From an uncultured Parafilimonas sp. (GTDB lineage: Bacteria; Bacteroidota; Bacteroidia; Chitinophagales; Chitinophagaceae), in contig CAIRZB010000059.1 of NCBI GenBank assembly GCA_903882935.1, positions 1-64,000 of the forward strand: a DNA stretch of 64,000 bases, read 5' to 3'. How positions within the stretch are numbered: the first letter of the stretch is position 1; each line of letters opens with the position of its first letter. The notes below the pieces were generated by a model that did no database searches, was not told the origin of the DNA, and saw only the letters and a program-made list of their open reading frames with translations. Shown here in pieces: positions 42,513 through 60,897 of the stretch. The position numbers and the translations under genes are program-made.

Positions 42513-42586
42513 TCCTCAGTAGCTCAGTTGGTTAGAGCATCTGACTGTTAATCAGAGGGTCTCCCGTTCAAGTCGGGACTGAGGAG
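42513..42586 (+). tRNA. tRNA-Asn (anticodon GTT)
   Basis: 74-nt cloverleaf. Acceptor stem TCCTCAG (42513-42519) pairs with CTGAGGA (42579-42585), D stem GCTC/GAGC, anticodon stem TCTGA/TCAGA with GTT at 42547-42549, and T arm TCCCG-TTCAAGT-CGGGA (42562-42578). Discriminator base G. CCA is not encoded. Terminator at 42598-42632. Confidence 0.97.
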
Positions 42587-45333: not shown

Positions 45334-46326
45334 TTAACTTAATGCTTCCAAAGCATCTGCCCTGTCTTTGGCCAATTGTTGTTTCAGGGCATCCAGCCCA
45401 TTAAACTTTACTTCGCCACGCAGGTATTTTTTTAGGTATACCCGCAGTGTTTTGCCATATATGTCTTGGTTAAAGTCAAATATATTCACTTCAATCACCC
45501 TGTTTTTCCCATCAATGGTCGGCCTAACGCCAATGTTCATCATCCCAGCCCCCCGTCCCCTAAAGGCGGGCAAAAGCAACGGATCTTTATCATCCGCTTG
45601 GGAAACTGGAAACTGGAAACCGGAAACTGAAAAATCCACCTCCACCGCATACACCCCATTGCCTGGCACAAGCTTTTCTGCATCCTCAATATGCAGGTTG
45701 GCGGTGGGGTAGCCAATGGTGCGGCCCAATTGGTTGCCTTGCACCACCGTGCCTTCAAAAAAATAACTGTGGCCCAGGTAATTGTTCGCGGTTGCAACAT
45801 CCCCGGCAAACAGTGCCTCCCTAATGCGGGTTGAGCTGATGATGATGTCGTTCAGCAACTTTTCGTTAATCTCCTTTACCGCAAAGCCCAGCTTGTTGCC
45901 AAACGCTTCCAGCAAATGGTAGTCGCCACTGCGGCCCTTGCCAAAACGGTGGTCGTACCCTATAATAATGGTGTGTGGGTTAAATTTGGCCACTAAAAAA
46001 TCGGTAATGTATTCTTCGGCGGTTTGGTTGGCAAAGGTTTCGGTAAAAGGTACCACTACCAAGTGGTGGATGCCTTTCGCTTCCAGCAGGGCAATTTTTT
46101 CGGCCAGTGTGGTTAATATAGCCACGTTGGTTTGGCCTTCGCGCACCACTTTACGTGGGTGTGGGTGAAAAGTAATGATTACTGTTTCGCCGTTCACCAA
46201 GGCGGCCTCTTTTTTCAATTGCGCAATTATTTGTTGGTGGCCTGCATGCACGCCATCAAAAGTACCTATAGTAACAACTGCATTGCTAAAGCGGGGCAAT
46301 AACCCAATATCACGGTGAACCTGCAT
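45334..46326 (-). CDS. ribF: Bifunctional riboflavin kinase/FAD synthetase with in-frame repeat insert
   Basis: Makes FMN from riboflavin and then FAD. 330 residues from the ATG at 46324-46326, which gives the usual MQVHRDIG N-terminus; the longer frame is repeat sequence. FAD synthetase half: VTIGTFDGVHAGHQ (HxGH-type), IIGYDHRFGKGRSGD, ISSTRIREAL. Riboflavin kinase half: GRTIGYPTANL and GMMNIGVRPTIDG. Between AVEVD and GMMN there are about 31 residues where about 8 are usual; the DNA of this stretch (45541-45630) is a GC-rich palindrome plus four GGAAACT heptamers. The start follows the -7 box by only 8 nt. Divergent from purM. Confidence 0.95.
   Translation of the reverse strand: MQVHRDIGLLPRFSNAVVTIGTFDGVHAGHQQIIAQLKKEAALVNGETVIITFHPHPRKVVREGQTNVAILTTLAEKIALLEAKGIHHLVVVPFTETFANQTAEEYITDFLVAKFNPHTIIIGYDHRFGKGRSGDYHLLEAFGNKLGFAVKEINEKLLNDIIISSTRIREALFAGDVATANNYLGHSYFFEGTVVQGNQLGRTIGYPTANLHIEDAEKLVPGNGVYAVEVDFSVSGFQFPVSQADDKDPLLLPAFRGRGAGMMNIGVRPTIDGKNRVIEVNIFDFNQDIYGKTLRVYLKKYLRGEVKFNGLDALKQQLAKDRADALEALS
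45549..45628. repeat. Dispersed palindrome and 7-mer tandem repeat inside ribF
   Basis: 45549-45571 is CCCCCCGTCCCCTAAAGG then CGGGC, a close copy of the palindrome upstream of ribF (46343-46362). 45601-45628 is GGAAACT-GGAAACT-GGAAACC-GGAAACT, four 7-base units. Both lie in frame in the riboflavin kinase half. Confidence 0.8.
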
Positions 46327-46342: not shown

Positions 46343-46362
46343 CCCCCATCCCCTAAAGGGGG
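46343..46362. repeat. GC-rich palindrome CCCCTAAAGGGG, copy beside the ribF promoter
   Basis: CCCCCATCCCCTAAAGGGGG, the same element as inside ribF and near dnaJ (60831-60850). It abuts the ribF -7 box. Confidence 0.65.
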
Positions 46363-46457: not shown

Positions 46458-47684
46458 ATGAGTTTATATTCACAACGCGGGGTTTCGGCACAAAAAGAGG
46501 AAGTACATGCGGCCATCCAAAAACTTGACCAAGGCCTTTACCAGCACGCTTTTTGCAAAATGTACCCCGATTTTATTGGGGGCAACAGCGATTTTGTAAA
46601 CATTATGCATGCCGATGGCGCCGGCACCAAGAGTATTTTGGCTTACTTGTATTGGAAAGAAACCGGCGACATAAGCGTATGGAAGGGCATTGCCCAAGAT
46701 GCGGTGGCCATGAACCTTGACGACCTGCTTTGCGTGGGGGTGTACGACAACCTGCTGTTCTCCTCCACCATTGACCGTAACAAAAGCGTTATACCTGGCG
46801 ACGTGCTTGAACAGGTAATTAATGGCACGCAAGCCTTTTTTGACGAGCTGAAAACCTACGGGGTAAATATACAATACCTGGGCGGCGAAACGGCCGATGT
46901 GGGCGACGTGGTACGCACCATAGCCGTTAACGGAACTATGATGGCCCGTTGGCCTAAAAACAAGTTGGTTACAAACGATAAAATAAGGCCGGGCAATGTT
47001 ATTGTAGGCTTTGCAAGCAGTGGTGTTGCTGCGTACGAAAACGCCTACAACAGCGGCATAGGCAGCAATGGGTTAACCAGTGCCAGGCACGATATTCTGG
47101 CCAAGCATTATGCCAAAAACCACCCCGAAACCTTTGAGCCAAGTTTAAATAACGAGGTGGTGTATATAGGCAAACATTTAATGACCGATGCGGTTAGCCC
47201 CGACAGGCTAACCGGCAGTAAAACGCCGTCGGGGGATCGTGATTCACGATTGACGATTGACGATGCACGTATTAACATCGGCCAGCTTCTCCTCAGCCCA
47301 ACCAGAACCTATGCGCCTTTGATGCGGGTTTTGCTGGAGAATTATTTTGACAAAATTGACGGTGTTATACATTGCAGCGGCGGCGGCCAAACCAAATGCA
47401 TGAAATACCTGCCGCAGCCATTAAAAATAATAAAAGACAACCTGTTTGAGGCTCCTGAAATTTTTAAACTAATACAGCAAAGCTCTGGCAGCGATAACAG
47501 GGAGATGTACCAGGTGTTTAACATGGGCCACCGTTTGGAGATATTTACTGACGAAACCACTGCCATAAAGATGATTGCAGATGCCAAGCACCTACACATC
47601 GAGGCCCAAATTGTTGGCCGCACGGAAGGCAGCGATAAAAAGGAATTGCATTTGAAGGTTAGGGATGAATGGATTGTGTATTAA
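46458..47684 (+). CDS. purM: Phosphoribosylformylglycinamidine cyclo-ligase with repeat insert
   Basis: Closes the imidazole ring to AIR in purine synthesis. 408 residues of the Bacteroidota PurM type: N-terminal HADGAGTKSILAYLYW, DDLLCVGVYDNLLFSSTIDRNK, GGETADVGDVVRT, VIVGFASSGVAAYE, GQLLLSPTRTYAPL and the C-terminal VFNMGHRLEIFTD. Between MTDAV and NIGQLLLSP there are about 25 extra residues (SPDRLTGSKTPSGDRDSRL and on), whose DNA at 47235-47265 is a tandem GATTGAC 7-mer. Followed by a hairpin at 47686-47714. Divergent from ribF. Confidence 0.93.
   Translation: MSLYSQRGVSAQKEEVHAAIQKLDQGLYQHAFCKMYPDFIGGNSDFVNIMHADGAGTKSILAYLYWKETGDISVWKGIAQDAVAMNLDDLLCVGVYDNLLFSSTIDRNKSVIPGDVLEQVINGTQAFFDELKTYGVNIQYLGGETADVGDVVRTIAVNGTMMARWPKNKLVTNDKIRPGNVIVGFASSGVAAYENAYNSGIGSNGLTSARHDILAKHYAKNHPETFEPSLNNEVVYIGKHLMTDAVSPDRLTGSKTPSGDRDSRLTIDDARINIGQLLLSPTRTYAPLMRVLLENYFDKIDGVIHCSGGGQTKCMKYLPQPLKIIKDNLFEAPEIFKLIQQSSGSDNREMYQVFNMGHRLEIFTDETTAIKMIADAKHLHIEAQIVGRTEGSDKKELHLKVRDEWIVY
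47235..47265. repeat. GATTGAC 7-mer tandem repeat inside purM
   Basis: Units GATCGT-GATTCAC-GATTGAC-GATTGAC-GATG, period 7. The tract is in frame and encodes GDRDSRLTIDD. The same kind of unit, AATGACC/ATTGACG, occurs in the hflX spacer (40663-40691). Confidence 0.75.
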
Positions 47685-60828: not shown

Positions 60829-60897
60829 TCATCCCCCCTTTAGGGGGTGGAAGGTTAATTATTTAAAATGTAGAACACCCCCGGGGAGGGTGTATAA
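60829..60897. repeat. Two GC-rich palindromes between grpE and dnaJ
   Basis: CCCCCCTTTAGGGGG (60833-60847) is an inverted copy of the CCCCTAAAGGGG element at 46343 and 45549. ACACCCCCGGGGAGGGTGT (60875-60893) is a second, different palindrome (ACACCC/GGGTGT arms). Either may act as a processing or attenuation signal between the two co-oriented genes. Confidence 0.6.

Follow-up and report, generated by a model that had tools for sequence, protein, structure and literature searches.

Heptameric tandem repeats recur in frame within an internal loop of the bifunctional flavin enzyme RibF in Chitinophagaceae and related bacteria

The ribF locus and the extended loop of RibF

The locus described here belongs to a 64,000 nt stretch of DNA (the window) from an uncultured Parafilimonas sp. 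of the family Chitinophagaceae. It includes ribF and purM, located on opposite strands, each with heptameric repeats inserted into its reading frame (Table 1). The RibF product contains both the FAD_syn and the Flavokinase Pfam domains and matches the NCBIfam models NF004160 and TIGR00083 over cut-off. A search of the whole window against Rfam at gathering thresholds has found only a tRNA (42513-42586).

Table 1. Features of the ribF and purM region (positions in the window)
Feature	Position	Strand	Basis and remarks
ribF, bifunctional riboflavin kinase/FAD synthetase, 330 aa from ATG	45334..46326	-	Pfam, NCBIfam, ATG position
In-frame extended loop of RibF, 29 residues, FSVSGFQFPVSQADDKDPLLLPAFRGRGA	45547..45633	-	Translation; between AVEVD and GMMNIGVRPT
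CCCCTAAAGG-type palindrome core, 20 nt, within ribF	45550..45569		90% identical over 20 nt to the leader copy
Four heptamers GGAAACT, GGAAACT, GGAAACC, GGAAACT	45601..45628		On the minus strand encode part of FSVSGFQFPVS
Second palindrome core copy, in the ribF leader (ribF-purM intergenic region)	46343..46362		Upstream of the ribF ATG
purM (AIR synthase) with an in-frame heptamer insert	46458..47684	+	Pfam AIRS, AIRS_C; NCBIfam purM match below cut-off
Stretch with inverted ends CCCCGAC...GTCGGGG, in the purM insert	47198..47234		
Heptamer array GATTCACGATTGACGATTGACGAT in purM	47241..47264		Near the genome's dominant WCGKGAA class on the other strand

The commonest loop of related RibF proteins has 12 residues counted from AV, that is, 7 past the fifth residue, versus 29 in the window RibF. 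The original prediction, made from the sequence of the window, had correctly recognised the extension, but its sizes (about 31 residues against a usual 8) were inexact. The whole insert is 87 bp long. The four GGAAACT-type heptamers that the prediction had named are indeed there, the third of them being GGAAACC, and Tandem Repeats Finder reports period 7 at 45601-45633. Alignment with the RibF proteins of relatives, which had been suggested as a check, has shown the insert to be lacking in most of them and its unit to be lineage-specific. In G013, a second genome of the genus, RibF carries a composite insert of a like kind, with its own length and sequence.

The AlphaFold2 model of the window RibF has a mean pLDDT of 89.8, and values below 50 occur solely at residues 228-235 and 239-244, both in the insert. 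The model assigns no secondary structure to the insert, which is placed between the flavokinase-domain strands 215-222 and 249-261, and thus answers the question of its structural position: it is predicted to be a disordered loop segment connecting two strands. The model matches solved RibF structures well (3op1, Z 31.4; 2x0k, Z 30.7). RibF of Corynebacterium ammoniagenes has a comparably long loop at the equivalent site, so the length of this loop appears to be naturally variable, and tolerance of the insert is less surprising than its recurrence.

Period-7 arrays in the RibF loops of relatives

We compared 203 distinct RibF loops, 126 from a family sample and 77 from named genomes, the latter coming from a scan of the best 80 of 585 relatives. 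In the family sample, 141 genomes had a RibF match, and 130 loci were extracted from them; some of the genomes with G handles are incomplete, and seven of the eleven genomes left out (G054, G056, G057, G075, G089, G095, G101, G111, G120, G122, and G131) had fragmentary or weak RibF matches. Five of 210 RibF loci could not be parsed (L052, L211, L217, L247, and L250), and two named loci (L044 and L055) were removed as duplicates of family loci. The array score thresholds and the loop definition are our own and were fixed after the first loops had been seen; the named set and the PurM loops serve as partly independent checks.

A period-7 DNA array (score of at least 11) is present in 18 of the 203 distinct loops, including 11/126 in the family sample and 7/77 in the named genomes (best 80 of 585 relatives). 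The insert of the window ribF, which is real as predicted, is not a one-off, as other genera hold other heptamer arrays in the same loop. The only other periods reaching this score were 14 (14 loops) and 11 (one loop). In the 65 loops of at least 17 residues, the fractions of matching bases at lags 7, 14, and 21 were 0.383, 0.354, and 0.341, versus 0.265, 0.267, and 0.281 in codon-shuffled sequences. Where long loops lack a strong array (43 of them), the period-7 excess is just slight (0.299 versus 0.265), suggesting that other sources of inserts exist.

The units vary by genus, e.g., GGGAGTC, TTCACCA, AGACCTC, CAATCGG, and GGCAAAT. Among the best 80 of 585 relatives, arrays are also found in Pedobacter (L068, L071, L081, and L104), whose RibF proteins are 44-48% identical to that of the window. 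On a RibF tree built with FastTree without the loop, the 18 array-positive loops require at least 15 state changes, a parsimony count which does not distinguish gain from loss. In one genus represented by 10 genomes, six RibF loops have strong arrays, with several different units among them, one has a degenerate array and three have none. The differing units between and within genera, together with the number of state changes, indicate that the RibF loop turns over and does not hold one old inherited insert. Some array-bearing loops are hardly longer than usual (14 residues in L197 and 17 in L011), so repeat DNA may replace the native loop sequence besides lengthening it.

In the named loci (best 80 of 585 relatives) ribF carries arrays at a rate of 7/77 versus 8/1041 for the other called genes (Fisher p 2.3e-5), three of these eight other hosts (one in L077 and two in L065) being possibly spurious or of low complexity. 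We considered a supply model, in which an array-rich neighbourhood leads to colonisation of RibF. This model was rejected, since RibF-positive named loci (up to 21 kb) are not richer in other arrays (1/7 versus 19/70, p 0.67); supply alone fails to predict which RibF gets an array.

RNA folds more stable than those of codon shuffles (z below -1.5) were obtained for 7 of 15 heptamer-bearing long loops versus 2 of 27 others (Fisher p 0.005). This excess, which comes from an afterthought analysis and needs independent data, hints at a constraint beyond neutrality. The window loop itself is not more stable than its codon shuffles (z 0.16). In the RibF loops of L035, L152, and L068, as well as in the futalosine hydrolase gene of L085, two roughly reverse-complementary arrays flank a spacer; the pairs in L035 and L085 were found by comparison of array orientation, those in L152 and L068 by eye. 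RNA of the three RibF loops folds more stably than codon shuffles.

Arrays in PurM and other host genes

PurM loops were parsed in 113 loci, yielding 92 distinct loops, seven of which (the window PurM included) contain a period-7 array. The purM gene of G013 has no counterpart of either the array or the inverted-end stretch of the window purM. The PurM loop of L272 contains sixteen in-frame tandem heptamers of the ATCCCGC/ATCCCGT type.

In 738 kb of the window's own genome, arrays are located in 5 of 576 called genes, coding for EPSP synthase (AroA), PcrA/UvrD helicase, an FAD-dependent oxidoreductase, RibF, and PurM. Further hosts in other genomes are LeuRS (in the editing domain), TruA, futalosine hydrolase, AnmK, a P-type ATPase, and PrmC. 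Genes were called by a simple longest-ORF method, so the calls include spurious ORFs, e.g., three of the four coding-array hosts in G071. The host proteins share no common pathway.

PrmC of G112 contains the peptide VSGFQFPV, identical to one in the window RibF. By eye, an extra 7-periodic stretch of the AACCTGT/AACCAGT/AACTTGC type can be seen right before LLDIGTGSGC in PrmC of both G112 and G000 (L339 and L340), so a third hot-spot loop may exist in PrmC. In the own genome, the PcrA/UvrD linker at the array is seven residues (21 bases, three units) longer than in both genus mates according to the protein alignment. More small gaps are located close by, and the DNA alignment shifts the gap (27 and 6 nt). 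The difference looks like a 21-base step. At the array site, uvrD of G112 has a single AAACCGG, with which local slippage from a seed fits as well as copying does.

The array population of the genome and its lineage-private units

Period 7 prevails in the sampled part of the own genome. Exact period-7 runs of at least 12 matches occur 10 times in 738 kb of the own genome, versus 0-2 times for each other period from 4 to 13; at the multiples 14 and 21 the same count gives 11 and 6. When arrays are counted by period in the same 738 kb, there are 15 at period 7 and 13 at period 14, no further period between 5 and 16 has more than one, and triplet-shuffled own sequence has no array at period 7. 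Heptamer arrays are non-coding in 11 of 15 cases in the own genome, 59 of 63 in the G071 sample and 8 of 11 in G085.

A 20 nt run of almost three consecutive GGAAACY units is present at two loci of the genome versus none for the control. Such arrays are present in 5 of 147 family genomes, including all three of the genus, with two loci each, and only 2 of the 144 other family genomes have them. The six loci of the genus are RibF (twice), PcrA/UvrD, methylmalonyl-CoA mutase, PrmC, and one intergenic site. The claim of the original prediction that two repeat families entered the coding sequence stands, as both are in frame in ribF and occur elsewhere in the genome; calling the GGAAACY array intergenic was wrong, as five of its six loci in the three genomes lie inside protein-coding frames. 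The reversed-letter control had no match in 146 genomes and nine matches in G026, which indicates that heptamer arrays of other sequence are readily encountered. Three consecutive WCGKGAA units gave 130 matches in the own genome and two and three in the two genus mates; any match was found in 18 of 147 family genomes, the reversed-letter control giving none throughout.

Of 135 array pairs within the own genome, 55 have an exact unit in common, versus 1 of 187 and 23 of 1071 pairs formed with two other genomes. Such sharing is far weaker within G071 (122/1927) and G085 (4/54), and between these two it amounts to 4/693. Private units common to different loci of one genome suggest that, in addition to slipping locally, units are copied from locus to locus. 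The unit of the G071 RibF was found in just one of 147 genomes, G071 itself, at three loci. In L008, the RibF and PurM arrays of one genome are built of different units.

Another idea, that the arrays might be miniature transposons or inverted elements in pairs, was rejected for lack of an overall orientation bias among neighbouring arrays: 13 pairs are inverted and 11 direct, with four ties, at score 11, and 23 are inverted and 21 direct, with seven ties, at score 9. The three neighbouring pairs in coding regions of the named loci (L035, L061, and L085) are all inverted.

G071 contains 33 period-8 arrays at a score of at least 13 in 400 kb (L301-L320, e.g., L310:2885-2945), while only one was found in 738 kb of the own genome, one in 400 kb of G085 and one in 1.33 Mb of the named loci. 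The process is thus not strictly limited to 7.

The palindromic element

The original prediction was right that the palindrome in ribF is nearly identical to a copy next to the same gene (Table 1). The 11-mer CCCCCTAAAGG occurs 36 times in the genome, versus once for its reversed-letter control. Ten-base CCCCTAAAGG cores are found at 51 sites in 738 kb of own sequence, a sample picked partly around the longer exact palindrome core and therefore enriched for the CCCCTAAAGG core. Outside called ORFs lie 37 of the 51. Eleven of the remaining 14 lie no more than 35 codons from the called start, and the starts of such ORFs may be miscalled, the ribF leader copy being one such case. The ribF copy at 45550 is among the few located deep within a gene. 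Another site of the element in the window is at 60837; by eye, the element often reads ACCCCCTCCGCCCCCTAAAGGGGGAACTTTAAGC and is often close to called gene starts.

Twelve pairs of neighbouring CCCCTAAAGG cores less than 300 bp apart are present in the 738 kb. Ten of them face each other in one inverted order, spaced 77-234 bp, and two are direct repeats 57 bp apart. The element is thus a short, high-copy and mainly extragenic palindrome and, being short, abundant and often arranged in inverted pairs, resembles REP-type palindromes (PMC3733652). In ribF, an element of REP type seems to have settled in the very loop that tolerates the heptamers.

The RibF loop of G013 contains a related, longer palindrome-like sequence. 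A different palindrome, CCCGATAGCTATCGGG, is present in frame and without heptamers in the RibF loop of a genome from another genus (L160, G074); the RNA of this loop folds with a z of -4.4 versus codon shuffles. The idea that the heptamers and the CCCCTAAAGG palindrome form one composite element was dismissed, as ribF is the sole place in the 738 kb where less than 500 nt separates the two.

Origin of the coding arrays

As 7 is not a multiple of 3, period 7 in coding DNA would not be expected from selection at the peptide level and is the mark of a DNA process. We propose that tandem arrays of 7-base units private to the lineage are scattered over the genome, chiefly in intergenic DNA, and would be created and renewed at many places by a DNA-level process, most likely slippage in 7-base steps during replication combined with copying of units between loci. 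Such copying could proceed by template switching or ectopic conversion. A gain or loss of 7 bases breaks the reading frame, so arrays in genes can enter or lengthen only in steps that add up to a multiple of three, and they would persist only if the frame is free of stops and the loop is not needed by the fold. The strand-to-strand loop of the RibF flavokinase domain and a loop of PurM are presumably such sites and would have been colonised repeatedly in separate lineages, and a REP-like palindrome would have entered the same RibF loop in the genus of the window. The copying step and the order of events are what we infer, and the added peptide itself is probably neutral. Overall, we consider it probable that the coding arrays are repeat DNA turned protein, generated by heptamer slippage and copying and kept where it is frame-safe in dispensable loops. 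We hold this explanation slightly less firmly because the DNA alignment shows the PcrA/UvrD step less clearly and the control gave matches in one genome.

Growth of the arrays in place from 7-base seeds in the loop, with a polymerase favouring 7-base steps and no copying between loci, is possible but doubtful. The excess of heptamers in bacteria was put down to polymerase slippage by a study cited in the available part of PMC4692102, the PcrA/UvrD linker of the own genome is three units longer than that of the relative with one AAACCGG, and two genes of one genome may differ in unit, as RibF and PurM do in L008. However, units are common far more within than between genomes, and the two RibF units tested recur elsewhere in their own genome or genus and hardly beyond (147 genomes), which unrelated seeds would not do; single 7-base growth steps in a coding loop would also have to pass via frameshifts. 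In our opinion unlikely is a dedicated process that writes lineage-private heptamers (in one genome also 8-mers) and overwrites tolerant enzyme loops in register, for instance one in which an enzyme akin to reverse transcriptases, or one adding terminal repeats, makes the arrays from a template. We similarly consider it improbable that the arrays are functional elements, such as sites of RNA- or DNA-binding proteins or mRNA hairpins, selected also in ribF and purM. TAACTGA heptamers of Beggiatoaceae were proposed as sites of a translational regulator (PMC4679880, available part), and the better folding of nearly half of the heptamer loops would agree with such a role; against it speak the patchy presence within a genus, the differing units, the host proteins without a common pathway and the lack of a preferentially inverted arrangement of neighbouring arrays overall, and the authors of PMC4692102, in its available part, could identify no regulatory role for the GGGAATC-type repeats.

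The two RibF genes recovered from the genus both have a composite insert of one heptamer unit, so the window insert predates their split. Extended to the whole family, this would mean one ancestral loop insertion that later diverged and was often lost, and parsimony counts, being blind to gain versus loss, leave room for it. Such a scenario is highly unlikely given the unrelated units, the positives in Pedobacter and the prevalence of 12-residue loops, and the state changes needed on the loop-free tree (at least 15 for 18 positives) led us to reject a single ancestral insert as the family-wide account. As for an assembly error or frameshift, which the original prediction had named as a possible refutation, nothing favours it except that the assembly is a draft in 114 contigs. 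Comparable open inserts are found in independent genomes, two of them in single-contig assemblies (G085 and G149), and the comparable composite insert in RibF of G013 shows that the one in the window is not an assembly slip; we regard the chance of an artefact as negligible. The explanation by slippage and copying, with retention in dispensable loops, is the one we adopt below.

Relation to known repeat systems

Cyanobacterial STRR heptanucleotides are tandem 7-base repeats present at many genome sites and also inside RNase P RNA. Heptamers are over-represented in bacteria, which has been linked to polymerase slippage, and heptameric simple sequence repeats include GGGAATC in Xanthomonas and GGGGAYT in Nostoc (PMC4692102, available part). 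The arrays described here resemble these in having many tandem 7-base loci which are mostly non-coding and differ among close relatives in both length and sequence; a 7-base unit in excess at many, mainly non-coding loci is exactly what we found. According to the same part of that source, the Xanthomonas and Nostoc repeats are G-rich, quadruplex-forming and strongly biased to non-coding DNA, whereas here there are many units, one class is largely located in genes and an internal enzyme loop is recurrently colonised. Judged from its sequence, GGAAACY, the unit in RibF, lacks three consecutive G and would fall outside the G-rich quadruplex subtype. GGGAATC units are present elsewhere in the own genome (L131).

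TAACTGA direct repeats are known from Beggiatoaceae, Cyanobacteria and five Bacteroidetes; in the studied Beggiatoaceae genome a few of them lie in ORFs, mostly at protein ends (PMC4679880, available part). They are likewise tandem 7-base repeats, are found in Bacteroidetes too and in a few cases enter reading frames. In contrast to this single unit, the arrays described here have varied units and lie mid-protein in conserved enzymes, recurrently at the same place. TAACTGA is not among the listed array units of the own genome.

Rickettsia palindromic elements (RPE) are repeat DNA inserted in frame in unrelated genes (review PMC10969869, available part). The likeness is that, within one lineage, short repeated DNA lies in the reading frames of metabolic genes unrelated to each other, and in-frame insertions in unrelated genes were found here too (RibF, PurM, AroA, PcrA/UvrD, LeuRS, TruA, futalosine hydrolase, AnmK, and PrmC). 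As described in that part of the review, RPE are about 150 bp long and encode a conserved peptide, whereas here we see short tandem arrays without one conserved unit: the RibF insert is 87 bp long, and both unit and peptide differ between genomes.

Simple repeats were reported to be suppressed in the middle of coding regions in prokaryotes by a study cited in the available part of PMC4692102. Among the literature matches listed on heptameric repeats and in-frame insertions, which cover little of the subscription journals, none described heptamers recurring in RibF or PurM; under the same coverage, no literature was found on heptamers in Chitinophaga or Pedobacter. Heptamer repeats have been described before, and so has selfish DNA in reading frames; as recurrent lineage-private colonisation of fixed enzyme loops does not appear among the matches listed, we count it as a new form of a known phenomenon.

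Implications

The favoured 7-base step is an oddity noted years ago, and the slippage hypothesis is the sole explanation offered for it in the available part of PMC4692102. According to the explanation adopted here, a DNA-level repeat process would furnish stretches inside housekeeping enzymes, returning to the same positions time and again, with strong turnover of the arrays. The RibF and PurM loops would thus provide many natural replicates for studying by what route repeat DNA turns into protein sequence, which kinds of loop accept it and what favours the 7-base step. Should a dedicated heptamer-writing process be at work instead, repeat DNA would be a continuing source of new protein segments.
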